The notes under the pieces were generated by a model. That model worked only from the letters and a program-made list of their open reading frames with translations, was not told where the DNA came from and did no database searches. Both the position numbers and the translations under genes were made by a program. From a virus: DNA of 48,924 nucleotides. Positions 11,799 through 40,820 of the stretch are shown here, piece after piece; within the stretch, counting starts at the first letter, position 1, and the number at the start of each line of letters is the position of its first letter. The stretch lies in the IMG/VR virus record IMGVR_UViG_3300018080_008420, positions 1 through 48,924 of that record. One strand, written 5' to 3'.

Positions 11799-12794
11799 TT
11801 AGGAGTTCGCGATCCGGTGCCGAAGGAGAACCATACGAACGTTCTTCGCTTCGTAGACCCGGGTCCAGCTTGCCGCGAGCTCGAGAGTCGCGTTCGTCGG
11901 GCCCCCACCTGTCGCGGCGCCGGCATACTTGACGCCTCTCGGGTGCATGACGAAATGCCGGCGGTTAACGAGAATGTCCTCGCCCGCCAAAACCTCGCGG
12001 TCCGTTTCCGTCATGGTCAGCTTGGAAGAAGTTCCCTCCGCCCAACCGATCGCGCCAGGACCGAAGAGGTACGTATCGTACACGGTACCGGAGACCCCGG
12101 AGACCGTCTCGGCCGGGTGCGAATCGTCGACGACGACCCGTTTCCCTTGGTAGAACGGAATACGAGAGTCGCCTTCGGACGGCTCGACGTAGTCGATAAG
12201 GTCGAGCTTGGCGAGGTAGTTCTCGACGGCCGAGTGCATAGAGATCGCCGTAAGCGAGCCCTTCGCGTCTCCGAGCATTTGGCCGGCGTCGAGGATCGCG
12301 TCGGCGTCGATAATGCCAGCCGAACCGGAGTCCTCGGAAATGTCGTGTACGTTGACCGCGGTCGACTCGTCGCCGAGCGAAGCGAAGACGCCCGTCAGCA
12401 TAGAGATCAAAGTCGCTTGGAGCCGGCGGGCCCAATAGCCAGCAACGAGGTCGCCGATCGCCGACATGGGATCGGAGCCCGAGAGTTGGGCCGCGAGTTC
12501 GTTTACGCCCCAAGCCTTACCGCGGGCGAAGACGACGGCGATATCTTGCTCGGAAGAAATCGCGTTGACCGTGAGAGAGGAACCGGTCGCCGAGAGAACC
12601 TCGTCCGCGCCGGTTAGATCCTGCCAGAATGGGAGATTGATTGTGTTCCCGCCTTCGGATACGAAAGCGTCGAGCTCCGAGACCGGAGCAATGATACCGC
12701 TCGAGAAGAGTTCGGAGAGCTCCGCCGTCTTTTCGATAACGTACGGGTTCCAAACCGCCGGAACGATAACGTCGGAAAGTCGAGTTGCCGCCAT
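11799..12794 (-). CDS. Major capsid protein
   Basis: A 331-residue HK97-fold-type coat protein. It begins TRLSDVIVPAVWNPYVIEKTAELSELFSSGII, followed by GGNTINLPFWQDLTG and AWGVNELAAQLSGSDPMSAIGDLVAGYWARRLQ, the hallmark of the coat family that includes phage proteins with the INLPFW and ...DLVAxYWxRxxQ elements. The C-terminal half has FVMHPRGVKY near residue 285. It lies downstream of the scaffold gene and upstream of the connectors. The ribosome site GAAGGAGG is strong, as suits a highly expressed gene. Packing of this fold around the portal is known for the family. Confidence 0.92.
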   Translation of the reverse strand: MAATRLSDVIVPAVWNPYVIEKTAELSELFSSGIIAPVSELDAFVSEGGNTINLPFWQDLTGADEVLSATGSSLTVNAISSEQDIAVVFARGKAWGVNELAAQLSGSDPMSAIGDLVAGYWARRLQATLISMLTGVFASLGDESTAVNVHDISEDSGSAGIIDADAILDAGQMLGDAKGSLTAISMHSAVENYLAKLDLIDYVEPSEGDSRIPFYQGKRVVVDDSHPAETVSGVSGTVYDTYLFGPGAIGWAEGTSSKLTMTETDREVLAGEDILVNRRHFVMHPRGVKYAGAATGGGPTNATLELAASWTRVYEAKNVRMVLLRHRIANS

Positions 12795-12972: not shown

Positions 12973-13830
12973 CTACTCTTGGATTTTGTGACCGTGGGCC
13001 GCCGCCATTTGGCGAGCGAGCGCCGGGTTCTTCTGGAAGATACGCCCTTGCTCCGTAAGGTTCCACGATTCTTTGGCCCAAGGGTTCTTAGAACCGCCTC
13101 GCCCGCCGTCGCCTGTCCGGGATCCGGTACCCGCGTTTCCGGAGGCCGGGAGGTACGGTTGCGCCTCTTCCGTCTTCGACCATTTCTCGAAGAAGTCGGC
13201 GACCGAGCTCTCGCCGAGCTCGTCCGCAATGACGCCGCGGTAAACCGTCTTCCCTGTCGACTCGTCGGTTACCCGCTCGACCTTCGGAGCGTACTTCGCC
13301 CGGATAAGCGCCTTCGCTCCCGGCCGGAGCTCCTCGATCGTCTTGGCATGAGAGAGGCCGGCGTCGAGCTCGCGGTCGAGAATCATAGTCTCGATAAAGC
13401 CGTCGCGGTCGGTAACCGACTCGAGGGCCTCGGCGAGATCCTCGTCCTTCTTCTCGAGTTGCTTCGTAAACTTCCGCTCGACCGCCTCCCTCGCGGCCTT
13501 CAGCTTCGCCTCGAGGTCGTCGCCGCCTTCGCCAGCGTCGAGCTCGGCGAGCCTCTCGAGGGCCGCCTTCGTCTCCTCCGGATCGAGCTCGCCCCAAGTC
13601 TCCTCGAGGGCGTCGGCCCGCTCCTTAATCTTCTTCAAGGCCGCGGCGTCCGGAGCAACCGCCTTGAACCGGGAAAGGGTACTCTTGAGTCCCTTTACCG
13701 TAGGGTGAGAGTCGATACCGGAGACGTCCAAGATATGAGCGTCGCCCGCTTGGTTCTCTTTGTAGAGCTCTTGAGTCGACTCGTCGAGCTCGGCCAATTC
13801 CTCGGCCGTTACTACCGCCTTCAACGCCAT
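12973..13830 (-). CDS. Capsid scaffolding protein
   Basis: A 285-residue protein that is almost entirely charged helix. Coiled-coil segments cover residues about 45-160 (LKSTLSRFKAV, ERADALEETWGELDPEETKAALERL, KAAREAVERKFTKQLEKKDEDLAEALESV). A GTGSRTGDGGRGGSKNPWAKESWNLTEQ linker follows near residue 235, then a short helical end (ALARQMAAAHGHKIQE). These are properties of phage scaffolding proteins whose C-terminal helix binds the coat. It directly precedes the major capsid gene in transcription. The C-terminal pattern NPWAKESWNLTEQGRI is seen in many such phage proteins. Confidence 0.85.
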   Translation of the reverse strand: MALKAVVTAEELAELDESTQELYKENQAGDAHILDVSGIDSHPTVKGLKSTLSRFKAVAPDAAALKKIKERADALEETWGELDPEETKAALERLAELDAGEGGDDLEAKLKAAREAVERKFTKQLEKKDEDLAEALESVTDRDGFIETMILDRELDAGLSHAKTIEELRPGAKALIRAKYAPKVERVTDESTGKTVYRGVIADELGESSVADFFEKWSKTEEAQPYLPASGNAGTGSRTGDGGRGGSKNPWAKESWNLTEQGRIFQKNPALARQMAAAHGHKIQE

Positions 13831-13876: not shown

Positions 13877-14455
13877 CTACTTTCTCGGAGGCGCCGAGAC
13901 GAGGCCGATCCATTCGATCGACGGAGCTCCGAACGTTGCCCGGGTCCAGCCTGAGAGAGACCGAACCCGACCGCGGAGCTCCTCGAGCCTCGTCGTCCAC
14001 CCCTTGACGTACCTCGAATATGACGCCCATTCCCGGCCGGAAAAGGAGTTTTTTCGCCGGTCCATTGGGATACCGCACAAGATAACCCTCGGATGCCCGA
14101 CGCCTTTCAACGCGACCGAGACCGCATAAAGACCCGAGCTTCCGTTCGTCCATCCCTGGAAATGATTCCGGACGACCGTCCTCCGGACCGAGCTCCAAGT
14201 CTCGAAGCCGCCAGGAAGGCCGGCGTCTTTCCTCATACGTTGCCAGCCGCCGAGCTTCTCGGCGTGTAACGTCGCCCAATGGTCGACCCGCCGATCCCAT
14301 ACCCGCCCGTTATGACCCTTCTTGTATCCCATGTCGTTACAGACGAAGACGGCGCCCGGCCATGGTTCGCCCATGAGCTCCTCGAGCCGGTCGATATCGT
14401 CCCAAACGTTCTCGCCTCCGCCGAGGACGAGGGCCGTTCCTAGTGCACTCGGCAC
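13877..14455 (-). CDS. Rossmann-like protein of the glycan cassette
   Basis: A 192-residue protein starting at GTG (14455), with AGGAGG placed seven bases upstream and the previous stop only one base away. It opens with a Rossmann-like strand-loop, TALVLGGGENVWDDIDRLEEL, and later has GSSGLYAVSVALKGVGHPRVILCGIPMD near residues 105-130, then SGWTRATFGAP near the end. Similar proteins are carried by other phages and usually left unnamed. The nucleotide-binding-like start and the neighbours (glycosyltransferases, sulfotransferases) suggest a sugar-nucleotide or glycosyltransferase role. That is inference; no catalytic motif is certain. Confidence 0.55.
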   Translation of the reverse strand: MPSALGTALVLGGGENVWDDIDRLEELMGEPWPGAVFVCNDMGYKKGHNGRVWDRRVDHWATLHAEKLGGWQRMRKDAGLPGGFETWSSVRRTVVRNHFQGWTNGSSGLYAVSVALKGVGHPRVILCGIPMDRRKNSFSGREWASYSRYVKGWTTRLEELRGRVRSLSGWTRATFGAPSIEWIGLVSAPPRK

Positions 14456-14456
14456 G

Positions 14457-15167
14457 TTAGAACCTCCTCTCGAGCTCTTGGATCCGGGCCCGACGCGTTG
14501 ACTTCCTCCGCCGGCCCTTCGGCTTGGGCCCTCGGTTGTCCCGGCTCGCGATCGTATGCTCGATTATCCGAGGCTCTCCCTTCGGGTACCCTTGAGCCTT
14601 GTCGAAGACGTAGCAATACCGGCCCGGGAGGTACGCTTGCTTTAAGTGTCGCCCCTGGCTCTTGACGATCGCCCATAGGTTCCTTTGACCTCCGCCGGCT
14701 TGCCAGCCGACCGACGCCGCCTCCCGGTTGTACCCAACCCATAAGGAGAGGAGGTTAAAGGCCGCGTCCGTATCGCCGAAGAAGAGCGTCCCGGACAAAA
14801 GCCTATGCTCCCGGGTACACTTCCCGCCGGAGACGCAACCGCAATTCTCGAGGAAGTTGTGTCCCTTCCCGGGACCGGCGAACCAATGAGCTCCGAAGTC
14901 GTATCCCTGGCTCCCGAGCCCGTCGAAATACTCCGAGCAATCCTCATGTACGAACGCGTCGACGTCGATATACACGATCGGCCCGCGGATCCTCTCTCGA
15001 GCCGAGAGGAGGAATTGAGGCTTTACCGCGACGTTCTTATCCCAGGAACCGCGGTCGTCGACGGCCGCGATCTCGTACGACATACCGACCCGGGCGAGCG
15101 ACGCCATAAGGAGCCCGGCCTCCCGCTCGTACGTCGTTCCGTTCGTATAGAACCCGACGACTTTCAT
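14457..15167 (-). CDS. GT-A glycosyltransferase with DxD motif
   Basis: A 236-residue protein. The start chosen is MKVVGFYTNG (15167), with GGAG upstream and TGA of the preceding gene overlapping; longer versions lack a ribosome site. It has a GT-A layout: an opening strand, then YEREAGLLMASLARVGMSYEI, QFLLSARERIRGPIVYIDVDAFVHED with the metal-binding DVD at residues 68-70, and a later SGGKCTREHRLLSGTLFFGDTDAA segment. The lysine/arginine-rich tail (RGPKPKGRRRKSTRRAR) is unusual. It should transfer a sugar from a nucleotide-sugar donor; donor and acceptor are unknown. Several cysteines between residues 105 and 116 may bind metal. Confidence 0.75.
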   Translation of the reverse strand: MKVVGFYTNGTTYEREAGLLMASLARVGMSYEIAAVDDRGSWDKNVAVKPQFLLSARERIRGPIVYIDVDAFVHEDCSEYFDGLGSQGYDFGAHWFAGPGKGHNFLENCGCVSGGKCTREHRLLSGTLFFGDTDAAFNLLSLWVGYNREAASVGWQAGGGQRNLWAIVKSQGRHLKQAYLPGRYCYVFDKAQGYPKGEPRIIEHTIASRDNRGPKPKGRRRKSTRRARIQELERRF

Positions 15168-15754
15168 TCCTTGCTCTCCGTTGAGGGATAACCGAGCTCG
15201 GCCATAAGGTCGCCGCATACGTCCCAAAAAACGGCCCGCTCGTACTTATGCCATTCGTCGAAGTCCGGCCAAATCTCGTCCCGGGATACGTTGACCCGTT
15301 GCCGGCGGATCCTCTTCCAAGCGTCCTCGTCCGGCCGGCCTCGGAAGATCCGGGCGAGCTCGGCGAACGATTCGAAGCTCGAGGTAAGGTCCTCGAGTCG
15401 GAAGCGCCTTTCCTCTGGAACCTCCCGGAAGAGGGTCGCGTTACGCTCGAGCCACATTCGCGAGCAATGTTCGAGCGTCCTCCCGGGCCTCGGTCGATTC
15501 AGGATCGACCGGACGACCTTCCTCCCGTCTCGGACAAGATGCACGATCGGAAACTCTTCGCCGTACCTCTTCCGAATGTCCGGAGCGTTCGCCCAAAGGA
15601 ACGAGTTAACCTCGACCGTCCCGTACCGCGTCGCCGAGTCCCAAAACTCGTTGGTCTCATGGCGGGCCGCGACGCCGCCAGCCTCCCGGAGAGCTTGAGT
15701 AAGCCAAGCCGTACCCGACCGGCCGATCGCCAATACGAAGCCTCTCTCTTTCAT
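15164..15754 (-). CDS. PAPS-dependent sulfotransferase, copy 1
   Basis: A 196-residue protein starting MKERGFVLAIG at 15754 and overlapping the methyltransferase stop (ATGA). The 5'-phosphosulfate loop is GRSGTAW at residues 11-17, the equivalent of the family pattern GxxxSGTTxL. The 3'-phosphate-binding motif is VHLVRDGRKVVRSI at residues 71-84. Residues 115-130 (RRFRLEDLTSSFESF) match the part that follows in family members. It should transfer sulfate from PAPS to a hydroxyl or amine of an acceptor, probably the product of the surrounding glycosyltransferases. It is a paralogue of the gene at 17847-18419. No signal peptide, so it acts in the cytoplasm. Confidence 0.85.
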   Translation of the reverse strand: MKERGFVLAIGRSGTAWLTQALREAGGVAARHETNEFWDSATRYGTVEVNSFLWANAPDIRKRYGEEFPIVHLVRDGRKVVRSILNRPRPGRTLEHCSRMWLERNATLFREVPEERRFRLEDLTSSFESFAELARIFRGRPDEDAWKRIRRQRVNVSRDEIWPDFDEWHKYERAVFWDVCGDLMAELGYPSTESKE

Positions 15755-16329
15755 CGAAGCCACCCGATCCAATGGTCGGCCGTTTCGTCGATCTCCTCGG
15801 CGACCCGTCCCATAGAAGCCGCCAAGACCGCCGGCCCTCTCAATCTCATATGCGACATAACCTCCCGCTCTTCGTACCGGGCGTCGATTACGAAGACCGG
15901 AGCGTCCGGACGGAGAACCCGCCGGAGCTCCGAGGTCCAGAGCTCGAAGTCCTCGTCGCTTACGATATGCTGAAAGACCGTAACGACGATCGCGATATCG
16001 ACCGAGTCGTCGCCGAGCGGGATCGAGTCCCGATCGAGCCACTCGTAAGCGAGCGCCGGGTTTGCCTCTCGAGCTTGAGCAATGCCGAAGACGCTTATGT
16101 CGGCGCCGAAGTACCCTCCGCAATACTGAGCGAGGAGCTCGGCGAACCGGCCGGAGCCGCAACCGAAGTCGAGGAGGACGTCCCAATACCCGAACCCGAG
16201 GGCCTCCTCGAGGTACCCTCGAAACGCTTCCTCTTGGAGCTCGGCGAGATCCTCCCGGCCGGCCGGTCCTACGTAGCTCGGTCCCTGGCTCGCCGCTCGG
16301 TTGTTCCAATACTCCCGCGAATTATCCAT
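15751..16329 (-). CDS. Class I SAM-dependent methyltransferase
   Basis: A 192-residue protein. Motif I is LLDFGCGSG at residues 52-60, followed by an acidic strand end (YFGADIS) about 17 residues later, and a motif II-like region IAIVVTVFQHIVSDEDF near residue 110. The lengths and order fit small-molecule or sugar O-methyltransferases more than DNA methyltransferases, since no NPPY/DPPY motif is visible. It overlaps its neighbours by ATGA on the downstream side and by eight bases upstream. In this cassette a role in methylating a sugar is inferred; the substrate is not readable from the sequence. Confidence 0.85.
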   Translation of the reverse strand: MDNSREYWNNRAASQGPSYVGPAGREDLAELQEEAFRGYLEEALGFGYWDVLLDFGCGSGRFAELLAQYCGGYFGADISVFGIAQAREANPALAYEWLDRDSIPLGDDSVDIAIVVTVFQHIVSDEDFELWTSELRRVLRPDAPVFVIDARYEEREVMSHMRLRGPAVLAASMGRVAEEIDETADHWIGWLR

Positions 16330-17044
16330 AGAAATTCCTCTCGAGGTTCGTCTCCCGAAACTCCGGCTTCCGGTATCCCTTCCGAGTGAACCGGCCGGCG
16401 TAAGGATCGAGGATCGCGCCGACGTCGAGGAGCGTAACGTTCCCTCGGACCCTCGGCCAAAGCCGCCAGATAATGAGATTCGACGCCATGCCGGCCGCGA
16501 AGAGAACGAGGTCGTCCCGCTCGGCCTTCCGAAAGACCTCGTCCGCGAGCTCGTCGGCTTCCTTCCATGCGGTCGAGTTCGGAATCCGGATATGGAGGAA
16601 GTTCCCGAGGAGCTCCGGAGGAAGCGAAATCATATGCTCCGGCCCGACGACAACGATTCGCCGCTCGTTCGCCGCTCGGAAGAAGGGCCCCAATTGCCCG
16701 TTCACATTCGCCGCGGAGAGCGTCTCCTTCCATACCCAAGGAACCTCGACGTCGTTTACCATAAGCCAGCGATAAACCTCTTCCTCGAGCTTCCTCCCTG
16801 GATTGTACCCGCACCAATGGCCGGCCGGCTCGAGGAGCGTATCCCGGAGGGCCTCGGCGAGCTCGGGCTCGTATACCTCGCCGTTTACGTTCCGACCCGC
16901 CTTACCGAGGAGACAAGAGAATTCGCCGTCGCCGTAATTGGCTTGGGCGAAATGAATCCTCGTCCGGATCATTTGCGTATAAAGCTCGACTCCGCCCGTA
17001 AACCACTTCCAACCCGGGTCGCCCGGTACCATGTCGAAGAGCAT
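16322..17044 (-). CDS. GT-D-like glycosyltransferase
   Basis: A 240-residue protein. The start MLFDMVPGDPGWKWF at 17044 overlaps the stop of the upstream gene (TAATG). Residues 28-42 read TRIHFAQANYGDGEF, matching the short hallmark of the GT-D fold (formerly DUF1792), typically RFGDGEF. Further family-like elements are WCGYNPGRKLEEEVYRWL and RRIVVVGPEHMISL. Known members transfer glucose in bacterial glycoprotein synthesis. It lies among other glycosyltransferases and sulfotransferases, so a step in the same glycan is likely. The fold call depends on the one short motif, so it is moderate. Confidence 0.55.
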   Translation of the reverse strand: MLFDMVPGDPGWKWFTGGVELYTQMIRTRIHFAQANYGDGEFSCLLGKAGRNVNGEVYEPELAEALRDTLLEPAGHWCGYNPGRKLEEEVYRWLMVNDVEVPWVWKETLSAANVNGQLGPFFRAANERRIVVVGPEHMISLPPELLGNFLHIRIPNSTAWKEADELADEVFRKAERDDLVLFAAGMASNLIIWRLWPRVRGNVTLLDVGAILDPYAGRFTRKGYRKPEFRETNLERNFYG

Positions 17045-17850
17045 TACCAAAACCTCCCGAGCCTTTCGAGGGTTGCCGCGAGGACCCGATCGGGATCGAG
17101 CCAAGAATGAGGAAGGAGCTTTATCTCGGAGCCGGTATGGTTCGCCTCGAGGAAACGCTCCGTCTTTACCGGTCCGTACTCGGGATCCATTACCCGCCCG
17201 TTCTCGTCCGAGCTCGGGCCCGGAGCTGTCCGGTCCCATTCGTGGACGATCATAAGGAGAGGTCGACCGGCCAAGACCGCCAAATGCGCGAGGCCGGCGT
17301 CCGTCGCGATAACGACCCTCGCCGAGTGCATAGCCTCGAGAGTCGCGTCGAGGTCTCGAGGGTAATCCCAAGCCCGGAGGCAATCGACGTCGTAACTCGA
17401 CTCCTCCGCGCCAGCCGCGAAGACGTCGACGCCCTCCTCGAGGAGACGGTCGACAAGCCAAGGCCAAGCCTCCCAATTCTTCGAGGCGCCGTACTTCCGG
17501 AAGCGAGGACAAACGACGACGTCGGTCCGGATCCCGTACGTCTCGACCGGCTCCGGGACGAAGCGAGCTCGAGGAGACCTCGCCGTCGGTTTAAGGATCT
17601 CCGCCCCCGGGTACTCCCTCCGAGCTCGGCGCTCGATATCCCGTACGAAGGAGCCGTCGGTATGGTAATGGTTCCTCCGCTTCCCGTCGTCTTCCTTCCT
17701 GGCGACAGGAACGAACGAGGCCGACGGATATAACGCCTCTTGGCCGGCCTCTCCGTAAACGACCTTCTCGCCTCGGATAGCATGGACCGCCGGCACGTAC
17801 CAAAAAACCTTGATCCCAAACTCGCCGCGGAAAGGCATTACGACTTTCAT
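17044..17850 (-). CDS. GT9-like (heptosyltransferase-type) glycosyltransferase
   Basis: A 268-residue protein with start MKVVMPFRGEFG at 17850, overlapping the previous stop (ATGA). It shows a GT-B layout: an N-terminal Rossmann half, a middle CPRFRKYGASKNWEAWPWLVDRLLEEGVDVFAAGAEESS like the RNW...W..L..L element of ADP-heptose-type transferases, and the C-terminal TDAGLAHLAVLAGRPLLMI (residues 183-201), which matches the TxD(S/T)GxxHxAxAxGxPxxxI donor-site signature of GT9. It likely uses a nucleotide-heptose or similar donor. Its presence points to a host-surface- or LPS-like glycan. Confidence 0.75.
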   Translation of the reverse strand: MKVVMPFRGEFGIKVFWYVPAVHAIRGEKVVYGEAGQEALYPSASFVPVARKEDDGKRRNHYHTDGSFVRDIERRARREYPGAEILKPTARSPRARFVPEPVETYGIRTDVVVCPRFRKYGASKNWEAWPWLVDRLLEEGVDVFAAGAEESSYDVDCLRAWDYPRDLDATLEAMHSARVVIATDAGLAHLAVLAGRPLLMIVHEWDRTAPGPSSDENGRVMDPEYGPVKTERFLEANHTGSEIKLLPHSWLDPDRVLAATLERLGRFW

Positions 17851-18419
17851 AACCGGTAACCCGTAAGAGTCATCATGTCGCCGCAAACCCTCTCGAACGT
17901 CGTCCTTTGCTCCGAGGTCCAGAGCTCCCAGGAAGGAAACGACAGGAGCCGAGCCTTCGAACTCGCGTTTACCTTGATCGTCCGGATCTTGTCCCAAGCC
18001 GCCTCGTCGACTCGAGTCGCGCCGAGCTTCGTTGCGAACGCCCGGAAGACCTTGAAGTCCGTCGTTAGGTCCTCGAGTCGGAAACGACGGTTCCCGCAAA
18101 TGTCCGTCCCGAGCTTCTCGTTCCGTCCATGCCAGCGCCGGCAAGCCGCCTCGAAGAAGTCCGGCGCCTTCCTCGACATGATCGTACGAACGACCTTCCG
18201 CCCGTCCCGGACTTGGTGAATTACGCCGGCCTCCGGGAAGAGCTCCTCGAGGCGAGCCGTCATGCGCCAGAGATTCCCGTTACTCTCGACGCCGCCGAAG
18301 TCCCGGCCGATATCGTATCTCCATGATTCATGGCGGGCGACGAGATCCGTCGCGGCCGTAAGAGCTCGAGCCGACCAAGTCGTCCCGCTATGCCCGACCG
18401 CCAGGATAAAGCCTTTCAA
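17847..18419 (-). CDS. PAPS-dependent sulfotransferase, copy 2
   Basis: A 190-residue protein. I place the start at TTG (18419), giving MKGFILAVGHSGTTW, because GGGAGG lies seven bases upstream and the TTG overlaps the previous stop (TTGA). An ATG at 18434 lacks a site. The phosphosulfate loop is VGHSGTTW at residues 8-15 and the 3'-phosphate motif is HQVRDGRKVVRTI at 68-80. Residues with GNRRFRLEDLTTDF repeat those of copy 1, so the two arose by duplication and then diverged. The acceptor is unknown; two sulfotransferases suggest two sulfated positions. Confidence 0.88.
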   Translation of the reverse strand: MKGFILAVGHSGTTWSARALTAATDLVARHESWRYDIGRDFGGVESNGNLWRMTARLEELFPEAGVIHQVRDGRKVVRTIMSRKAPDFFEAACRRWHGRNEKLGTDICGNRRFRLEDLTTDFKVFRAFATKLGATRVDEAAWDKIRTIKVNASSKARLLSFPSWELWTSEQRTTFERVCGDMMTLTGYRL

Positions 18420-18619
18420 GAGTCGTCCTCCCATAGGGTATAGGAGACCTTTCCCTCGAGTCGCTCCGTATCCTCGAAGTCTTCCGTATAACGGAGGACC
18501 CATCCCTCCTCGGTATTGAGGGCGTAAACGAAACCCTTCTCGAGCTCCTCTCCGTCGAGGAAGACCTTATCGACCTCCATTGCCTCCGGATCCTTGCCGG
18601 CCCATAGCTCCGTTTTCAT
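18416..18619 (-). CDS. Small unknown protein in the glycan cassette
   Basis: A 67-residue acidic protein, MKTELWAGKDPEAMEV...KVSYTLWEDDS, with start at 18619 behind GGGGGCGG and overlapping the upstream stop (ATGA). It is mostly beta-strand-like with no cysteine pair, signal or membrane segment. No family recognised. Tight coupling to both neighbours indicates a genuine gene. Confidence 0.7.
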   Translation of the reverse strand: MKTELWAGKDPEAMEVDKVFLDGEELEKGFVYALNTEEGWVLRYTEDFEDTERLEGKVSYTLWEDDS

Positions 18620-18855
18620 TCCGCCCCCTCGAGGAAGCCGCATACGATCGCGAACGTCTCCCAAGCTTGCCGGATAATCTCCCTCGGCTCGTGATTGGGC
18701 CAAAATACGCCGGTAAATCCGGTCCGGAGGAAACGATCGAAGCTATCCCGTTCGCCGTCGCCCCAAATGATCTCGAACCTCGGCTCCGTCCGTTGCTTCT
18801 TATGCTCGGCGATTACCTTCGACGCCGCGAGGATATCCTCTTCCGTTACGCTCAT
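18616..18855 (-). CDS. Small unknown protein in the glycan cassette
   Basis: A 79-residue protein with start MSVTEEDILAASKVIAEHKK at 18855, coupled by ATGA at both ends. The N-terminal helix is followed by strands and a C-terminal helical segment (EIIRQAWETFAIVCGFLEGAE). No domain recognised. It lies between glycan-synthesis genes and may be a partner protein, but nothing in the sequence shows that. Confidence 0.7.
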   Translation of the reverse strand: MSVTEEDILAASKVIAEHKKQRTEPRFEIIWGDGERDSFDRFLRTGFTGVFWPNHEPREIIRQAWETFAIVCGFLEGAE

Positions 18856-19490
18856 ACCGCCCTCTTCTTCCATAGGATATGCGCCCAACCGGCCGACGGG
18901 TGATTGAACCGCGGCCGACCATGCCCGCAAATGAGACGAGCTCCTCGAGGAGGGCCGCTCTTCGCTTGGGCCTTGAAGCTTACGACTTGTCCCGGGACGA
19001 GGTCTTGAATCCTGTCGACGGGCCCGAGGACCTTCCGGTACCAATGATCCGACCGAACCTTGTGCTTCCGCATGATTCCGGCCGGCCCGGAGAGGAACCG
19101 TTCGAGGATCTTCTCCGTCCTCGTCCCTGGCGTGAAATGCAAGACGCCCGACGCCATTTCTTTCGGTTGGTAAAAATCGGAGAGAGCCGCGTATTCGCTC
19201 TCTAACGAGCAAAGATCCTCGAGAGACCCGACCGGTAAGGAGTCGAGGTCGACGTACGTTACGGGTCCAGAGAAGAGGCCCTCTCGGTAAAGCTCGAGCT
19301 TCGACCACCAACCCGGCCACCCGTACAGAAGAGGAACCGTCTCGACGCCGAGGATCCGCAAGCGAAGGTCCGTAAGGCAAACGAGCTCGGCGCCCGGCAA
19401 ATGCTCCCGGACGCCCCTCCAAAGGGCCCGGACCCATGCCGGACCGTATACGTCGCCTCCGCTCCGGAGAACGCAAGCGACGGTCCTCAT
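18852..19490 (-). CDS. GT-A glycosyltransferase with DxD motif (second)
   Basis: A 212-residue protein with start MRTVACVLRSGGDVYG at 19490, overlapping the previous stop (ATGA). It has the opening GT-A strand, CLTDLR, a WWSKLELYREGLFSGPVTYVDLDSLPVG segment with the metal-binding DLD at residues 81-83, and a later SDFYQPKEMASGVLHFTPG and RFNHPSAGWAHILW. The motif YxDLDSLxVG with KxELYR is common in short phage and bacterial GT-A enzymes that act on a glycan end. Donor and acceptor are unknown. It is not closely similar to the first DxD enzyme, so the two probably add different sugars. Confidence 0.75.
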   Translation of the reverse strand: MRTVACVLRSGGDVYGPAWVRALWRGVREHLPGAELVCLTDLRLRILGVETVPLLYGWPGWWSKLELYREGLFSGPVTYVDLDSLPVGSLEDLCSLESEYAALSDFYQPKEMASGVLHFTPGTRTEKILERFLSGPAGIMRKHKVRSDHWYRKVLGPVDRIQDLVPGQVVSFKAQAKSGPPRGARLICGHGRPRFNHPSAGWAHILWKKRAV

Positions 19491-20389
19491 TCGAGCGCCT
19501 CGAGGGCGTCGGCGACCGCCCATACGAAGAGCGGGACCGTTATCTCGATCCGCCCGGTTATATGGTGCCCGTCCGACGTCGGCCTCGAGCAAACGTTATT
19601 CCATGCCCGATACGAACGTCTCTCGTCGAAGTCGATCGCCAGGAAGCCGGCCGGAGCTCCTTGGTTCAAGTTCCGAGCGAGCGACAAAGCCTTGAGGAAT
19701 ACTTCGGGCATGATTACAGCCGACGCGACGTTGACAACCGTCCCGATCTCCGGGAGAGCTCTCGAGAGCGTATGGAAGTCCTCGAGGCCCGTCGTACCGA
19801 TCGCCGCTCCGTCGGCCGAAGGATGTTGGTAAATGATCTCGGCCCCGATCGCCGAGTGAATCGAGAACGGGATCCCGGCTTGCAACGCATGGAGGAGGAT
19901 CGAGCTCTCCGGCGCCTCGAGGTCGTCCCGCCGTATGAGCGCCTCTCCCAAGGCTCGACCCATGCCCCAACCCCTCCGAGCTCCTTCCCGGATCGCCTCG
20001 TTTATCTCCCGACCGGTCTCTTCCGCCATACCGAAGGAGCCGTCGACAATCCCGGCCGCGACGTCTTCCGACGTACCGCCGAATCGAGCGAGCTCGTAAT
20101 CGTGGATCGCGACCGCGGCGTTACCTGCCAGGAAGGAAACGAGACCTCGGTCCATGAGCCAGCAAAGGAGAGGGCCGAGTCCCGTCTTGACCGCATGACC
20201 GCCGAGCATAAAGAGCCGGCCCGCCCTCGAGAGGACGAACCGGTCGGCGAGCTCGAGGAGCTCCTTCGCTTGGAAGATTTGCGGGAGCGACTCCAAGAAG
20301 ACGCCGGCCTCGTCCGGAGGTTTCGCGAACCTCGAGACGTCGACCTTCGAAAGCCTGTCCGCTATGGGATACGTAAACGGCTCCGCCAT
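19487..20389 (-). CDS. Deoxyhypusine synthase-fold protein, catalytic lysine absent
   Basis: A 300-residue protein. Three stretches correspond to deoxyhypusine synthase: MLGGHAVKTGLGPLLCWLMDRG and AGNAAVAIHDYELARFGGTSED (residues 61-109), SILLHALQAGIPFSIHSAIG and EIIYQHPSADGAA (162-196), then VASAVIMPEVFLKALSLARN (221-240) with a C-terminal ITVPLFVWAVADAL. Where human deoxyhypusine synthase has WGK with the catalytic lysine, this protein has a short GHHITGR loop with no WGK. A related family exists in bacterial genomes, some members likely acting in polyamine synthesis. The phage protein may bind NAD and make or use a polyamine-like group for the cassette; that is inference. Confidence 0.7.
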   Translation of the reverse strand: MAEPFTYPIADRLSKVDVSRFAKPPDEAGVFLESLPQIFQAKELLELADRFVLSRAGRLFMLGGHAVKTGLGPLLCWLMDRGLVSFLAGNAAVAIHDYELARFGGTSEDVAAGIVDGSFGMAEETGREINEAIREGARRGWGMGRALGEALIRRDDLEAPESSILLHALQAGIPFSIHSAIGAEIIYQHPSADGAAIGTTGLEDFHTLSRALPEIGTVVNVASAVIMPEVFLKALSLARNLNQGAPAGFLAIDFDERRSYRAWNNVCSRPTSDGHHITGRIEITVPLFVWAVADALEALE

Positions 20390-20634
20390 TAGTGCGGAAC
20401 GATAAGGCCGGCGGGCGTCCGTCCCTTCGGCGCCTCTTCTTCCTCTGGCGATTTCATCTTGTCCAGCTTGAGGAGGAGCTCGGTTTGAGTCATGCGGGAG
20501 ATAACCCGAGTCTTCGCGAGCTCGAGGAGACCGAGGAAGAGGACAGGGTCGTTCATAGGACCCTCGACTTTCATTTCCCCGAGGTTGTCCATGGTAATTA
20601 GAATCGAGACCTTCGTCGCCTTACGCTTTCCCAT
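20389..20634 (-). CDS. Small unknown protein
   Basis: An 81-residue protein, start MGKRKATKVSILITMDN at 20634 with AGAGGAAAG upstream; the stop overlaps the DHS-like start by one base. It has a basic N-terminus, a beta hairpin-like stretch, and then helices (GLLELAKTRVISRMTQTELLLKLDKM). No family recognised. It may still belong to the cassette because of the TAATG coupling. Confidence 0.7.
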   Translation of the reverse strand: MGKRKATKVSILITMDNLGEMKVEGPMNDPVLFLGLLELAKTRVISRMTQTELLLKLDKMKSPEEEEAPKGRTPAGLIVPH

Positions 20635-20648
20635 GTTCTTTCCTCTGG

Positions 20649-20846
20649 CTAAGAATCCGACACTTCGGAAAAGACCGGCCCGAGGATCCGCTCCTCGACG
20701 CGTTGGGTAAGGGCCCAAGCCTCCGCCGGTTTCCAACCCGCCTCGACGAGACGGTCGTAATGCCCTTTTAAACTTCCTTGGACCTCGAGACAGTACGCGA
20801 GGAATTGCTCGAGCTTGTGGGTCGCGAGGGAAGCCTCTTCGTCCAT
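20649..20846 (-). CDS. Small helical unknown protein
   Basis: A 65-residue protein, MDEEASLATHKLEQFLAYCLEVQGSLKGH to the end, mostly alpha helix. It follows the Mu gpF-like gene by one base. No family recognised and no metal-binding pattern. The good context and acidic helix suggest a real gene. Confidence 0.65.
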   Translation of the reverse strand: MDEEASLATHKLEQFLAYCLEVQGSLKGHYDRLVEAGWKPAEAWALTQRVEERILGPVFSEVSDS

Positions 20847-20847
20847 T

Positions 20848-22035
20848 CTAACCCAATCCCTCGAGGAGGTCCCGGAGAGAGATTATCGAATTGTCTCCCT
20901 TCACTAGATCCTTGAGCGATATCTCGCCGGCCCGGAAGAGCTCCGCCTTACCCTTCCCGATTTGCCGGTTTTGGATCCATGCGGGTTGCCTCCGAAACCA
21001 CTCCTCCGCCGTCGTCCTCGAGGAGACCGAGGTTTGCTTCCCGAGGAGACCTTGCCCGCGTCGGGTCGTAATCTTCTTCCGCATATCCGCCGGCTCGAGA
21101 CCCGAGAGATCGCGGGCCTTACGGTAACCGTCCGGCGGAGGCTCGAGGCCGAACTTCTCATAATCGGGAACCGGGACCAAAGTCGACCGACAGTTTACGT
21201 GCGTTGTATCGCCAGGAACGACGATCTTCGGAGAGTCGACCGCCCATATCGTACCGTCGAGAGAGAGACAAAGAGCCGTCGTCCGATCGTCCAAGGCCGC
21301 GGAATACTGGACGCCGGCAAGAGCTCCCTTGTTCGCCCGATACGTCTCAAGGTGCGACTTCGACGAGATAAACGTTACAGCCGTTCGGACGACAGCCTCC
21401 GCGTTCCTCGTCGTCGCCTTGTAAACGCCGCCTCGGAAATCGTGAACCATGCGGCCGCCGACTTCCTTAAAGCCGGCGCTCGTTCCTCGGAGCCGCCGGG
21501 TAATCTCCGGGATCCCTTCCTCGAAGGTCATGCCCGCCCGAATCTGTCCGACGATCCGGTTATACGTTGTCGCCTCGAGGCCGGCCGCCCATTCGGCGAG
21601 TAAATGTTGCTCGCCCGCTCCGCCGAACGGGAGCGTATTCAAGATCGTCCGGACCCGAGCTTGTGTTATTGGAGTATTCCGAATGACGCCAGCCGCGGCC
21701 GTTTCGCCGAGCGACGCGACGAGCGTCCCTTGAGCGTACTCGCCTTGACTCCGGCCGACGACGGCGAGTCTGTCCCGAACCACTTTCTCCCAAGCCGGGA
21801 ACGCTTCCCGGAGACGAGCCCGTACCGTTCGTATGAGCTCCTCGGTCCGGTAGGTTTGCCACTTCTTGAGCTTCGGAGCGGTCGGGTCGATCCTTTTAAG
21901 GTCGTCGACGATTTGCGCCACTAAGGCGTTGAGGAGAACTTCGCCCTCTTTCGATATCGTCGTTCCGAGCCGTTGCAGGATAAAAAGGTTTTGAACAACC
22001 CTCCCGACAGGATCGACGCCGACCGGTCCGGCCAT
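20848..22035 (-). CDS. Mu gpF-like head morphogenesis protein
   Basis: A 395-residue minor head protein. The family core is visible at residues 244-290: YSAALDDRTTALCLSLDGTIW, then PGDTTHVNCRSTLVPV, in which D249, C256, H279 and C282 match the conserved metal- or structure-binding residues of the phage Mu gpF/SPP1 gp7 family. It works with portal and scaffold in capsid assembly and often enters the virion. It lies downstream of the portal gene as expected, but is separated from scaffold by the inserted glycan cassette. Confidence 0.9.
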   Translation of the reverse strand: MAGPVGVDPVGRVVQNLFILQRLGTTISKEGEVLLNALVAQIVDDLKRIDPTAPKLKKWQTYRTEELIRTVRARLREAFPAWEKVVRDRLAVVGRSQGEYAQGTLVASLGETAAAGVIRNTPITQARVRTILNTLPFGGAGEQHLLAEWAAGLEATTYNRIVGQIRAGMTFEEGIPEITRRLRGTSAGFKEVGGRMVHDFRGGVYKATTRNAEAVVRTAVTFISSKSHLETYRANKGALAGVQYSAALDDRTTALCLSLDGTIWAVDSPKIVVPGDTTHVNCRSTLVPVPDYEKFGLEPPPDGYRKARDLSGLEPADMRKKITTRRGQGLLGKQTSVSSRTTAEEWFRRQPAWIQNRQIGKGKAELFRAGEISLKDLVKGDNSIISLRDLLEGLG

Positions 22036-22038
22036 GGG

Positions 22039-22647
22039 TTAACCCTCGAGCTCCGCGAGCTTCTTCTTCGCGGCCTTGAGGACGGTAATCCTCCCGCCCT
22101 CTTTGTTCGGGTTCCTCGGCTCATGCTCGAGGATCGCTTTGATCGCCGCGACACTCGAGGAGCTCTTGATATACTTCCCGATCGTCGTCGCCGCGGTCGC
22201 GTATACGTCGGCCGGCGACGGGATCGACTCCTCGGCCCCGCCTTGTCCGTCCGCGGGAGGAGTCTCTTTCGGCTTCGCCGCTCTCCTCTTCCGAGGTTTC
22301 GCCTCGGCCTTCGGCTTCTCCGCCGGAGGCTCGGGTTTCTTCTCCTCCGGAGGAAGAGGAGCCGGAGCTCCTTCGGGCGCCGCCTTGACCCCTTCGCCCG
22401 TTAGGAGCCAGTACGCCGCGACTCCCAAATGCTCGGCCGCGATCCGGAGCCAATAGTTCGGAGGCCGGCCGCGGCCCTCGAGCCAGCGCCGGAGCGTCTT
22501 CCTTGTCGAGTGTACGCCTCGGACGCCTTGCCCCCTGGCGTACTCGTTGAGCGCCTCGACCTTCTCGTCGAAGTTCTTGCCGGTCGGAGCCCCCTCGATT
22601 GCCTCTCGAAGCCTCTCGCCGATTGTCGTTACAGCGTCGTCCATCAT
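22039..22647 (-). CDS. Helix-turn-helix-type protein with low-complexity linker
   Basis: A 202-residue protein. Residues about 47-86 (STRKTLRRWLEGRGRPPNYWLRIAAEHLGVAAYWLLTGEG) resemble the end of phage XRE/CI-type helix-turn-helix domains, in which a helix pair is followed by LGVxxxWLLxGEG. A Pro/Ala/Lys/Glu-rich linker covers 90-135, and a short C-terminal domain follows (ADVYATAATTIGKYIKSSSSVAAIKAIL). A repressor-type role is possible, but its place among head genes is odd. The start overlaps the previous stop (ATGATG); either ATG could be used, with AGGAGG just upstream. Confidence 0.6.
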   Translation of the reverse strand: MMDDAVTTIGERLREAIEGAPTGKNFDEKVEALNEYARGQGVRGVHSTRKTLRRWLEGRGRPPNYWLRIAAEHLGVAAYWLLTGEGVKAAPEGAPAPLPPEEKKPEPPAEKPKAEAKPRKRRAAKPKETPPADGQGGAEESIPSPADVYATAATTIGKYIKSSSSVAAIKAILEHEPRNPNKEGGRITVLKAAKKKLAELEG

Positions 22648-23078: not shown

Positions 23079-23468
23079 TTACGTATGTGTATCAAGGGCG
23101 TTCGCCTTGACCCGGAGCGTATGAGCGTCCCGGGTCCAGCGTGTACCCTCCGGCGTTTCCTTGTGAGTGTCGGTCGGGACCAAGACCGAGAAGACCTTAT
23201 CGCCGGCCTCGTCCGTCTCGATCGCCGAGATCGTTCCCGAGATCCTATGCGGAGAGTACCCGACCTTTACCGCGGCTCCGACCTCCCAAGTCGGCCGGGT
23301 TACGCTCTCGAGATCCGACTCCTCGGCGAGAGAGTACGACCAACCGCTCGCGGCCTTGCCGTTCTTCCAATAGACGAGCCAGCGAGGACCGACCAAGGCC
23401 GGCGCCTTGTCGATTACGATTACCGAGTTTCCGCCATACGTCGCCCGGTCCCCGATACGGACGCTCAT
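23079..23468 (-). CDS. Unknown head-region protein
   Basis: A 129-residue protein, start MSVRIGDRATYGGNSVIVID at 23468 overlapping the portal stop (ATGA). It is beta-rich with no cysteines, signal or membrane segment (GDRATYGGNSVIVIDKAPAL..., WEVGAAVKVGYSPHRISGTISAIE). Its place immediately after the portal gene suggests a virion or assembly role. No family recognised. Confidence 0.7.
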   Translation of the reverse strand: MSVRIGDRATYGGNSVIVIDKAPALVGPRWLVYWKNGKAASGWSYSLAEESDLESVTRPTWEVGAAVKVGYSPHRISGTISAIETDEAGDKVFSVLVPTDTHKETPEGTRWTRDAHTLRVKANALDTHT

Positions 23469-24997
23469 TCGTCGCCCTCTCCTTCGTCCTCGAGGTTCTC
23501 CGCCGCTCGAGTTCGGCGTACGGCTTCCGCCATTGCCGCGAGCTCGGACGTCCCGGCGTTCTCGAGGCGCTCCTTCTCGAGCTCGACGTCGAAGTCTTCC
23601 TCGAGGATCCGGCCGGAGACCATGCGGTCCCAAAGCGTCTCGACGGAGAGGTTCCCTTCGCCGACAGCCTTCAGGAGCTTGTCGAGGAGGTCCGGGCTCA
23701 TGGGCTCGACCGAAAACTCCGTATCGAGCGTTATCGAACCGGAAGGCTCCTTACCGAGCCACATAGAATGGAGAGCGAGAGCCTCGCCGAGGGCCGAGCT
23801 CGTTCCTCGAGCTTGGGCCGCGAGCTCGGAGTCTTGGCTCTTTTGATCGAGCCGGGCCTTCTCCTCTGTCTCCGCCTGTCGCGTTTGCCTCTCGAGCATG
23901 GAGAGACCGAGCGACGCCATTCGCTTCTCGATATCGAGGAGCTCCTCCCGGGTATGCTTCAAACCATGACCTTGAGCCTCGGTATACTCGGAGCCTTGTT
24001 CCTGGCGTCCCTTTGGAAATGCGATCCCCATTGAGGTACCGACCGTTACGACTTGGAGGTCTTCCGCCTTCAAGCCGTACACGTTGAGAATCGGAATCGA
24101 GGTAACGTGCAAGTTCGAGTCGCGGTCGCTCCGGATTTGCCAATGCTTGAGGTTCTCGAGAGCGAGGTCGAGGAGAGGAGGATCCGAACGCATAAAGCCG
24201 GTCCGCTCGGCGTAGTCTGTAACGACAGGAATCCGGGTCATACGCTCGCCGAGGATCTTCCCGTCCCCCTCTCCCTCCGGCGTCCATTCGCCCTCGTTGT
24301 CGGCGTCTTGGACCCATGAGCGGAAGAGAACCCTCCGGTCGGCCTCGGCCGGGAGCTCCTCGTCCTCTGGCGTCGGCGAGCCGTCCCTCCCGACGAGGTC
24401 GAATTGCCGGATCCGCTTGACCCGCTTTTGACCGAAGTCGCCTTCCCGGACCGTCGCCTCTTCCTCGTATGCGAACGAGACGAGAACAACGATTCCGCCG
24501 TCTTGCCGGGTCCAATCCCGAACGACTTGGCTCTTGCGGATAAGGGTCCAGTAAGGCCGGGCCATACCGACCGACTCGTCCTTCGCCGAGCGAGCTCCAT
24601 CCGGACCATGCCAATCGACGAGGATATGCGAGTGCCCGTCGATTAGCTTTTCCTGAAAACCATGGCGGGCGAAGACGTCGACGCCTTGTCCCGTCAAGTC
24701 GATATTCGCGAGGTCCTCCTCGATATCCGTATCGACGTCGTCCCAAATCGACGGAGTCTCCCGGAAGACGATCCCGGTAAGGCCCTTTACCGTCTTCTTG
24801 TACGCGTTGAAGAGGACCGCCTGAGCTAACCTCTCGGAATACGCGTCGTCCTCTTCCTTCGGCCATTGCGGAAGATTGTCCGGCTTCTCCCGGAGAAGGA
24901 GCGTACCGCCGTATACGTTCCGGCATACCTCGACGGCCGGTCTCATTTCCTGTTGAACGACGCCGACGCTACCCGGATTGTTGGTCTCGTTTGCCAT
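23465..24997 (-). CDS. Portal protein (DUF4055-type)
   Basis: A 510-residue protein. Typical portal elements are YSERLAQAVLFNAYKKTVKGLTGIVFRETPSI near residues 53-85, then GFQEKLIDGHSHILVDWHG (residues about 112-130), and a long C-terminal helical region with LLDIEKRMASLGLSML. This pattern is characteristic of the DUF4055 portal family. The dodecameric portal would form the DNA entry channel at one capsid vertex. It lies directly after the large terminase, the usual order, and overlaps the following gene by ATGA. Confidence 0.88.
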   Translation of the reverse strand: MANETNNPGSVGVVQQEMRPAVEVCRNVYGGTLLLREKPDNLPQWPKEEDDAYSERLAQAVLFNAYKKTVKGLTGIVFRETPSIWDDVDTDIEEDLANIDLTGQGVDVFARHGFQEKLIDGHSHILVDWHGPDGARSAKDESVGMARPYWTLIRKSQVVRDWTRQDGGIVVLVSFAYEEEATVREGDFGQKRVKRIRQFDLVGRDGSPTPEDEELPAEADRRVLFRSWVQDADNEGEWTPEGEGDGKILGERMTRIPVVTDYAERTGFMRSDPPLLDLALENLKHWQIRSDRDSNLHVTSIPILNVYGLKAEDLQVVTVGTSMGIAFPKGRQEQGSEYTEAQGHGLKHTREELLDIEKRMASLGLSMLERQTRQAETEEKARLDQKSQDSELAAQARGTSSALGEALALHSMWLGKEPSGSITLDTEFSVEPMSPDLLDKLLKAVGEGNLSVETLWDRMVSGRILEEDFDVELEKERLENAGTSELAAMAEAVRRTRAAENLEDEGEGDE

Positions 24998-25000
24998 ACT

Positions 25001-26398
25001 CTAAACTCTCCACGGGAACGGTTGGGCCGGCTCTTCGGCCTCCGCTAGGATATTGAACTCTTGAAAAGCCAAGTAGTCGAGGGCGTCGCAAGGATGATCG
25101 TAACCGAGCGTCGGGTTCTTGTCCCGGATCGACGTTCCCTCTTTGTATTGAAGTCCGGAGAGGGCGTCGATAAGATGCTTCGCCCTGGGGTGAATCCGGA
25201 TAAGGCCCCGCTTAAACAACGCGTTCGAGTTGTTCTCCCTGTCGACGACGAGAGGCGCCGCCGCCGGAGCTCGTACCTCAAACCCGGCTCTCTCGAGTAT
25301 GGTAATATCGGTTTGTCCGAGAGGCGCCGAGGTCCTCCGTTGCTTCCCGGCGGGGTCCGGACAGACGATAACCTTCCGGCCTTCGTACCTCCGCTTATAC
25401 TCCTCGGCGAGCTCCTCCGTATTCGAGGTCGGTACCCGGAGGGCGTCGAGGATATGGAGCTCGTCGACAACCCGGACGCCGATAACGGAACACATTGGGT
25501 TAACGTTGAAATCCTGTCCGATAAGGACCTCGCCGCCAGTATCTTCGACCGAGTCGTCGACGTTGCCTTCCGGGTACAGTGCCTTCGAGAAGGCGTAGTA
25601 AACCCGGCCCTCGATATCGTCGAGGATCTTGGCGTGTATCTCTTGGTCGCCGAGCCTCGTTCCTTCGTACGCCTTGAGGATCTTCGCGAACCAATTCGGG
25701 TCGAGGTTCGATCGGTTCTCGTAACTCGATCCCGTCGTAACGACCGTCGTCGGGAGCTCCTCGAGCTCGGTAAGAAGCGGGTGTGGTCGAGGCGTTGAGG
25801 TAATGGTAATACGAGGAAGATCGTCGGCCGGCTCCCGCATACCGAATTGAAGGGCGTCCCATACTTCCCGCGGGTTCTTGTACTTAAAGAGCTCGTCGAT
25901 CCAAGCCGAGTCGCCAGAGAAGCCGCGAAGCGAGTCCGGGTCCTCGCTCGAGTAGATCGTCGCGACGGACCCGTTCGGCCACGTAACCCGCCTCTTCGAA
26001 GGCTCATACTTCGGTCGCTCCCAAGGAGACGAGTTGCGAAGGATCCCGCCAGGACCCTCGACCATGTAATCCCGGGCGTCGGCCGGCGTCTTCGCGATCC
26101 ATGCCAGCCAACGAGGGCGAGCTCCGGCCCGTTCATGCGCCCATTGCCCGCCGCAACGCGTCTTCCCGAAACCGCGGCCGGCTCGGACGATCCATGTAAG
26201 CCAATCTCCCGGCGGAGCGACTTGGTTTCGTCGGGCCCAAAAATGCCGCCATTCCCATTCAAGAAGACGAGCCTCCGTTTCCGGAAGGCTCTTCAAAAAA
26301 TCCCGTCTTTCCGATTCGGGAGCCAATGCCAGCAATTCGGCCGGCGAGGCGTTCCCGTATGTCGCCAACGTCGTCGAATTGGATCGGCGGTCCCTCAT
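25001..26398 (-). CDS. Terminase large subunit
   Basis: A 465-residue packaging motor. Walker A is GRGFGKT at residues 74-80 and Walker B AWIDEL at 165-170 with D168/E169, followed by coupling motif TITSTPRP (198-205). The nuclease domain shows D296 (IGQDFNVN), D348 (VCPDPAGK) and D438/D441 (PCDALDYL). It cuts and packages genomic DNA into the head with the small subunit. The 5' end overlaps the small subunit gene by 140 bases in a different frame; the coding sense of the N-terminal 30 residues (ELLALAPESERRDFLKSLPE) is typical for terminases, so the overlap seems real. Confidence 0.95.
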   Translation of the reverse strand: MRDRRSNSTTLATYGNASPAELLALAPESERRDFLKSLPETEARLLEWEWRHFWARRNQVAPPGDWLTWIVRAGRGFGKTRCGGQWAHERAGARPRWLAWIAKTPADARDYMVEGPGGILRNSSPWERPKYEPSKRRVTWPNGSVATIYSSEDPDSLRGFSGDSAWIDELFKYKNPREVWDALQFGMREPADDLPRITITSTPRPHPLLTELEELPTTVVTTGSSYENRSNLDPNWFAKILKAYEGTRLGDQEIHAKILDDIEGRVYYAFSKALYPEGNVDDSVEDTGGEVLIGQDFNVNPMCSVIGVRVVDELHILDALRVPTSNTEELAEEYKRRYEGRKVIVCPDPAGKQRRTSAPLGQTDITILERAGFEVRAPAAAPLVVDRENNSNALFKRGLIRIHPRAKHLIDALSGLQYKEGTSIRDKNPTLGYDHPCDALDYLAFQEFNILAEAEEPAQPFPWRV

Positions 26399-40030: not shown

Positions 40031-40045
40031 CTCTCCTTGGTCGTT
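40031..40045 (-). promoter_or_regulatory. Repeated leader/ribosome site
   Basis: AACGACCAAGGAGAG, six bases before the small CxC gene start. Best match to the leader consensus together with the copy at 32296. Confidence 0.7.
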
Positions 40046-40820
40046 AGTTGAGCTCTCGAGCCCAACGGGTCTTTCTGCAAGTCGGAGCCTTGTCGGTCCG
40101 AGCTCGCGAGGGTCGATTCCATGTCCCGCCCTTCGTCCGAGCCTCCGGAGTCCAGCCGGCCGCCCGGAGCGAGGTCCCGCTCTCCGTTTCTAGGGTGTAC
40201 GTAATGATCTTCTCGAAGCCGCGTCGCTTCGCTTCCCGGGCCGCTTCCGCGTACGCTTGGCTCGCCGCGTTCCATAGGAGCTCGCCCTCGATTGAATCAT
40301 GCGCCAAGCAAAGCCGGTTTACCTCGACCGTCGTCGTACCGTCGATCATGCGGGCAACCGGTCGACCGACCATAACGACGCCGACGAGATCGGGCCCGTT
40401 ATGGATCCCGTATCCCCAACGCCAGGAGACCGGCGGCCGGTTGTGCCTATGGTGGTCGAGGACGAACGCCTTCGCCGTCTTGAGGTCGATCGGCTCGAGA
40501 CGGATACCGAAGTCGAGGAGGGCCCGCCCGTCTCCGGAGGCAACCGTCCGGAGCTCGATCCCATGACCGGCGAAGACCCGACGGAGCGAGGAGAGGTATT
40601 CCTTCCGCTCGTCCCGGCCCATTGTCCGGAGAGCCTCCGAGAGATCCTCCCGGAGGTCTTCCTCGGCGTCTCCACAGCAAGCGACGACTTGAAAGGCCCT
40701 CTCCTCCGGATAAACCTCGAAGAGGTCCCAAGCCCAAAGCTCGCCGCAAAAAGGACAAGTCTCGCCGGTCGTATAACCGCCAGCGAAGAGAACGTCGGGC
40801 TCCCAATGAAGCTCGCTCAT
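40044..40820 (-). CDS. XF1762-family GNAT-like protein
   Basis: A 258-residue protein. CPFC at residues 22-25 and ACCG near 47-50 suggest an N-terminal zinc ribbon. Residues 123-205 match the XF1762-type family, a GNAT-like fold: HRHNRPPVSWRWGYGI, LVGVVMVGRPVARMI, TVEVNRLCLAHD and a YTLETESGTSLRAAGW element near the end. Phage Mu Mom, which modifies adenines in DNA, has a GNAT-like fold, so a link to DNA modification is possible. Its ATG sits at the stop of the DpdA-like gene (TAATG), so the two are coupled. Confidence 0.7.
   Translation of the reverse strand: MSELHWEPDVLFAGGYTTGETCPFCGELWAWDLFEVYPEERAFQVVACCGDAEEDLREDLSEALRTMGRDERKEYLSSLRRVFAGHGIELRTVASGDGRALLDFGIRLEPIDLKTAKAFVLDHHRHNRPPVSWRWGYGIHNGPDLVGVVMVGRPVARMIDGTTTVEVNRLCLAHDSIEGELLWNAASQAYAEAAREAKRRGFEKIITYTLETESGTSLRAAGWTPEARTKGGTWNRPSRARTDKAPTCRKTRWARELN

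Follow-up and report, generated by a model that had tools for sequence, protein, structure and literature searches.

The eleven-gene cassette

The window, the whole 48,924-base stretch of IMG/VR virus record IMGVR_UViG_3300018080_008420, carries a cassette of eleven intact open reading frames (ORFs) at 13877-20389 on the minus strand, in which neighbours overlap by 1-8 nt or are 1 nt apart. The cassette lies inside a head module of SPP1 type, between a MuF-type head morphogenesis gene and the scaffold gene, and all listed head genes are on the minus strand as well. A sequence-only reading of this DNA had counted about eleven coupled genes from MuF to scaffold; there are exactly eleven, plus two small genes between MuF and the cassette. 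In order of transcription, the cassette genes are:

19487-20389, minus strand: GSU2086-family protein (NF052581, 298.3 bits against a cut-off of 250, E 7e-89)
18852-19490, minus strand: PmgQ-type, GT-A-like glycosyltransferase (GT) with a DxD motif (phrog_1962, E 8.5e-41)
18616-18855, minus strand: small protein, no convincing Pfam or PHROG match
18416-18619, minus strand: small protein, no convincing Pfam or PHROG match
17847-18434, minus strand: ST1, 3'-phosphoadenosine-5'-phosphosulfate (PAPS) sulfotransferase-like protein (PF13469, E 2e-5), start at ATG 18434 or TTG 18419
17044-17850, minus strand: GT9 (heptosyltransferase)-like GT, core gene (PF01075, E 8e-4; profile match to 1psw)
16322-17044, minus strand: GT-D-like GT, core gene (PF08759, E 0.005; GDGE motif)
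15751-16329, minus strand: S-adenosylmethionine (SAM) methyltransferase (PF08241, E 1e-14)
15164-15754, minus strand: ST2, PAPS sulfotransferase-like paralogue of ST1 (41% identity, E 4e-35)
14457-15167, minus strand: g11GT, GT-A-like protein, core gene (invariant DxD; cassette relatives 42-54% identical)
13877-14455, minus strand: g12, sialyltransferase-fold (CstII-like) protein (structure model and Foldseek)

Three of the family assignments are strong, namely PmgQ-type GT, methyltransferase and GSU2086 protein. Those of the GT9-like, GT-D-like and sulfotransferase-like proteins are weak when judged by sequence alone, and we tested these proteins further because their scores fall below curated cut-offs. 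For the PmgQ-type GT, the phrog_1962 match covers residues 3-209, D81 and D83 are invariant in 8 sequences, and the identity to P1 PmgQ is 32%. The GT9-like protein falls short of PF01075 (19.3 bits, cut-off 22) and of TIGR02193 (14 against 185), and a profile built from five sequences of its family matches heptosyltransferase II WaaF (1psw) with E 3.5e-4. The GT-D-like protein falls short of PF08759 (DUF1792; 17 bits, cut-off 27), and its GDGE motif (G38 D39 G40 E41) is invariant in 14 homologues. ST1 and ST2 both score below the PF13469 cut-off of 27 (25.4 and 14.9 bits), and they conserve the (R/H)SGT loop, which is the 5' phosphosulfate loop, and an RDGR motif. The AlphaFold (AF2) model of ST1 (predicted local distance difference test score, pLDDT, 88) has the tyrosylprotein sulfotransferase (TPST) structure TPST2 3ap3 as its best Foldseek match (E 4e-6, template-modelling (TM) score 0.66), and each of its 22 best matches is a sulfotransferase. 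We find no Pfam or PHROG match for g11GT; its DxD residues D68 and D70 are invariant in 15 homologues. The AF2 model of g12 (pLDDT 90) matches CstII of family GT42 (1ro7; Foldseek E 3.5e-5, probability 1.00, TM score 0.55) at 13% identity, and an archaeal HPPK fold is similar too. Sequence profiles of g11GT, the GT-D-like protein and g12 give only chance matches to PDB sequences. No cassette protein of the window has a 19-residue stretch above 1.6 on the Kyte-Doolittle scale, as a membrane segment would.

Most of what the sequence-only reading had proposed for single genes survives. Both of its DxD glycosyltransferases hold up, the second by the invariance of the motif, and so does its SAM methyltransferase. 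Its GT9-like, GT-D-like and double PAPS sulfotransferase labels stand in part, by the 1psw profile match, the invariant GDGE, and the ST1 fold with its 41% paralogue respectively, and fail at the Pfam cut-offs. The protein it had described as having a DHS fold belongs instead to the GSU2086 family, above the NF052581 cut-off, and g12, with its sialyltransferase-like fold, was not among the genes it named. The names g11GT and g12 are provisional and stand for phage protein families so far unannotated. A g12 homologue (34% identity) is found in an isolated phage, as p38 of Paracoccus phage Pkon1 (L010, 9959-10825), where it immediately follows the gene for the major capsid protein.

Recurrence beside head and packaging genes

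Scanning IMG/VR viral contigs with g11GT identifies the same set in four other phages, and scans with GT9-like and g11GT profiles bring the total to about 16 carriers besides the window's phage. This count omits near-duplicates and also L063-L065, phage contigs of low GC content (one is 181 kb long) that share a g11GT-like domain only, as part of a larger protein; in L065 a SIS-like gene lies nearby. The shared core consists of the GT9-like, g11GT and GT-D-like genes, and the usual additions are a PmgQ-type GT, a sialyltransferase-fold protein, a sulfotransferase and a methyltransferase, with FkbM-like methyltransferases among the additions in relatives. Compared with the window's copies, the GT9-like proteins are 35-61% identical and the g11GT proteins 42-54%. 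About 13 of 17 carriers have a sulfotransferase homologue, some contigs being partial and some matches weak (the L016 type, PF13469 E 1e-3), and about 12 of the 17 have a methyltransferase, again with some contigs partial.

Several observations suggest that the core travels and evolves as a set. The GT9-like and g11GT identities co-vary (Mantel r 0.72, p 1e-4, 13 phages), and each of the two co-varies less with the GT-D-like protein (r 0.30-0.35, p 0.01-0.02). There are domain fusions of an FkbM-like methyltransferase with a sulfotransferase (L026), of a GT-D-like protein with an FkbM-like methyltransferase (L060) and of a methyltransferase with g12 (L030), which would link the cassette activities to one another. 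Between L016 and L017, dN/dS is 0.13-0.44 where measurable (0.08-0.09 for TerL and portal), so the cassette genes appear to be under purifying selection; the patchy divergence of this pair suggests recombination. The GC content of the carriers ranges from 0.44 to 0.68, and their hosts therefore probably differ.

In every carrier with a readable flank, which leaves out only L026, the cassette directly adjoins TerL, portal, MuF, protease, scaffold or capsid genes. The sequence-only reading had proposed searching related phages for the same gene order, and the core indeed recurs, with head or packaging genes as its neighbours in nearly every case. The slots are:

G011: MuF, cassette, scaffold and major capsid protein (MCP), the same slot as in the window
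L018, G007: portal, cassette, MuF
L019: TerL of the Terminase_3 type, cassette, portal
L016, L017, L024, L055: cassette, then TerL, portal and protease of another type
L057, L059, L061: portal, cassette, protease, (decoration), MCP
L060: cassette, then portal and MuF
L058: cassette after portal and protease
L027: cassette after portal
L030: cassette before portal

For a terminase near the L026 cassette, a PF03354 search of G009 gives no match. Because the head modules of the carriers belong to different families, the linkage to head genes is not simple inheritance. The G007 cassette contains three additional genes (L022, 4824-8039). One product combines a lyase-like domain with a long Glu-Pro repeat, another is 174 aa long, and the third, of 592 aa, carries a filamin-like domain; these are possibly head-surface proteins and candidate glycan acceptors. 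Two scans of genome contigs with the g11GT and GT9 profiles find no bacterial or prophage carrier, tblastn of the ST1, ST2, GT9, GT-D and GSU2086 proteins finds no match in 50,697 records of isolated phages, and a MuF scan of viral contigs finds no relative.

The head operon around the cassette in the window reads:

25001-26398, minus strand: TerL, SPP1-type head module
23465-24997, minus strand: portal, SPP1-type head module
20848-22035, minus strand: MuF-type head morphogenesis gene, upstream flank of the cassette (PF04233, E 5e-10; phrog_241, E 3e-65)
20649-20846, minus strand: small gene s65, between MuF and cassette (G007 homologue beside MuF, 34% identity, E 3e-7)
20389-20634, minus strand: small gene s81, no family match among Pfam and PHROG profiles
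12973-13830, minus strand: scaffold gene, downstream flank of the cassette (phrog_206, E 9e-21)
11799-12794, minus strand: MCP, SPP1 gp13 type (phrog_247, E 2e-101)

The window has 7 kb from MuF to scaffold. In the phage collection, the SPP1-type phage whose capsid protein is most similar has an interval of about 0.4 kb there, with one small gene in it. No promoter or terminator signal rises above chance in the cassette region. Between portal and MuF, 22039-22647 (minus strand) encodes a protein weakly similar to phage repressors (phrog_2328, E 1e-6). A second record, IMGVR_UViG_3300017991_000181 (G001), is practically the same sequence (99.97-100% identity). It spans the two ends of the window (48924 and 1) and adds 3,650 bp absent from it, from which we estimate a genome of about 52.6 kb, of which the window is an incomplete copy. 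We do not count G001 as an independent replicate, because it may come from the same sample.

Proposed product and target of the cassette

The GSU2086 protein has a putative role in heptose-type sugar synthesis, suggested by gene neighbourhood. In Geobacter sulfurreducens, GSU2086 sits between hldE (GSU2085) and gmhA (GSU2087), and the fitness defects of hldE, GSU2086 and gmhA are alike in one screen (-3.1, -3.2 and -3.7; PMC5585712). Two plasmid homologues have a SIS-domain gene nearby, together with a gene for a sugar kinase or HAD hydrolase. Among the cassette relatives, L019 has an HldD-like ADP-heptose epimerase (TIGR02197, 268.4 bits against a cut-off of 274.6), L029 has a KpsF/GutQ-like sugar-phosphate isomerase, and pyruvyl transferases occur in L019, L027 and G007. 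A canonical GSU2086-family gene (380 bits) is also present in L006 (9956-10912), an unrelated phage contig without the cassette, and its product is 40% identical to the window's protein.

It is very probable that the block produces some kind of glycan. The sulfated, methylated glycan of the sequence-only reading fits a coherent enzyme set whose core is found in about 16 other phages; of the two targets it had considered, capsid and host surface, the linkage to head genes and the lack of membrane proteins in the set favour the virion. We consider it moderately probable that the cassette is a portable virion-glycosylation module, by which a virion (head) protein would receive a glycan of heptose type that is sulfated and methylated. 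A virion target is suggested mainly by the linkage of the cassette to head genes of different families. The cassette genes would be expressed late, together with the head genes, and cytosolic GTs would assemble a short glycan including a heptose-type sugar, to which the GT9-like enzyme and GSU2086 protein point in the window, and the HldD-like epimerase and sugar-phosphate isomerase in relatives. The sulfotransferases and the methyltransferase would cap or decorate this glycan. The acceptor would be a head (or tail-tube) protein made in abundance, and it would be modified in the cytoplasm, either ahead of assembly or while it proceeds; the MCP at 11799-12794 is a possible candidate. Such a coat would change the surface charge and the binding properties of the particle. 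More tentatively, and as a plausible conjecture, unrelated tailed phages may coat their heads by means of a widespread, horizontally exchanged module, whose heptose-type glycan, sulfated, methylated and sometimes pyruvylated, would form a negatively charged coat. We found in the literature no description of a negatively charged particle coat of this kind for phages, and no paper on a phage sulfotransferase cassette.

A number of points weigh against a virion glycan. The glycan, its sulfate and its acceptor are all predicted from genes, and a search of the head proteins for S/T/P-rich or other glycan carriers gives no convincing acceptor. Several of the family scores fall short of curated cut-offs. 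The GSU2086 gene is present only in the window's phage among the cassette contigs searched, and the putative heptose link of its family comes from neighbourhood. The TPST-like fold modelled for ST1 could also mean direct tyrosine sulfation, and the head linkage also fits plain late expression of enzymes that act on the host surface.

The last of these leads to the strongest alternative, in which the enzymes act during infection on a glycan of the host surface, lipopolysaccharide or another, and so block superinfection or re-adsorption of progeny to debris. The GT9-like, HldD-like, KpsF/GutQ-like and pyruvyl transferase relatives do belong to envelope-glycan pathways, and cytosolic GTs are able to act on lipid A-core. 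We nevertheless regard it as unlikely. The cassette has no flippase, polymerase, ligase or membrane protein, unlike gtr cassettes, and the absence of membrane proteins argues against surface modification of the Gtr type; an integrase domain is detected neither in the window nor in most of the relatives (G007 gives one weak match); and the linkage is to varied head genes, not to lysogeny or tail-fibre genes.

Phage GTs often modify DNA bases, and hypermodification of the phage DNA is another candidate function. Nucleotide modification based on GTs and sulfotransferases is mentioned for phages in a metagenome paper (PMC10829341), and the window has a Mom-like gene at 40044-40820 (minus strand; phrog_1384, E 5e-30). 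This gene is distant, at 40 kb, and near recombination genes, and it indicates that the phage probably has a separate route of DNA modification. A thymidylate-synthase-family gene is found in none of 12 contigs, with the control positive in 9 genomes; TET/JBP dioxygenase matches are also absent from all 12, a weak result since the control is silent too. Heptose and pyruvyl enzymes do not suit DNA modification, and we find this explanation improbable. About as improbable is direct sulfation of virion-protein tyrosines by ST1 and ST2, with the GTs acting separately. The solved folds nearest to ST1 are tyrosylprotein sulfotransferases, and the distance between the SGT loop and a conserved Glu is similar to the one in TPST, but the glycan sulfotransferases NDST and 3-OST match the ST1 fold too, and the sulfotransferases are found inside a GT cassette, the one in L026 being fused to an FkbM-like methyltransferase. 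Least probable of all is that the set makes a small molecule or another diffusible product, or that the acquired genes form only a loose collection, as the uncharacterised GSU2086 family and the contents differing between phages might suggest, in view of the conserved core, the co-varying distances, the purifying selection and the fusions.

If the cassette does glycosylate virions, then virion glycosylation, known in phages mainly from a few mycobacteriophages, would be a general phage strategy across many different environmental phages. The role of a sugar coat on particles in soil and water (adsorption, stability, avoidance of recognition) would become testable.

Comparison with known systems

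Like the Gtr serotype-conversion cassettes, the cassette is a phage-borne set of glycosylation genes. Gtr sets use membrane proteins GtrA, GtrB and GtrX, and the window's cassette proteins include no membrane flippase or membrane GT. With the Geobacter hldE-GSU2086-gmhA operon the cassette shares the GSU2086 family and, in its relatives, HldD-like and sugar isomerase genes; it differs in being phage-borne, in having no recognised hldE or gmhA, and in adding sulfation and methylation functions. The pmgO-pmgQ genes of P1 are similar in that PmgQ is related to the GT at 18852-19490 and pmgO is annotated as a sialyltransferase, matching the g12 fold; Citrobacter phiNP has a comparable pair before terS. 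These P1 genes are GT-like genes without sulfotransferase or heptose-type genes, and are annotated only with putative morphogenetic functions. The giant virus Moumouvirus has a glycogene cluster that is linked to its capsid fibrils and covers GTs, sugar synthesis and the metabolism of sulfate (PMC9614988). It is another viral cluster that joins GTs and sulfate functions, a likeness of gene content alone and with a eukaryotic virus.

The closest parallel in layout is the Corndog type of mycobacteriophage (cluster O, including Catdawg, L067), which also has GT genes, in tandem, and a methyltransferase gene inside the head operon. In Corndog, an O-methyltransferase and three GT genes lie between portal and protease (PMC4351075), and the capsid and tail tube are glycosylated, according to Freeman 2023 as cited in PMC12363180, PMC12619734 and PMC11600133. 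The sequence-only reading knew of no described system with such a set, which was too strong a statement, since Corndog-type phages have both GT and O-methyltransferase genes in the interval from portal to protease, and their capsids are described in these sources as glycosylated (PMC4351075, PMC12363180). No direct homology to the Corndog/Catdawg enzymes is detectable: comparing Catdawg gp33-36, the homologues of the Corndog genes, with all cassette families by hmmsearch and hhalign gives a best hhalign probability of 19%. With no relation to the Catdawg enzymes detected, we propose that the cassette works like the Corndog system and do not claim membership in it. The Corndog-type set has no annotated sulfotransferase, GT9, GT-D or heptose-pathway genes, the kinds of gene predicted in the window's cassette; Corndog glycosylation has been tested by experiment, and the cassette is known from its genes. 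A set of this kind beside head genes has a precedent in Corndog, and a recurrent, portable module beside head and packaging genes is new.

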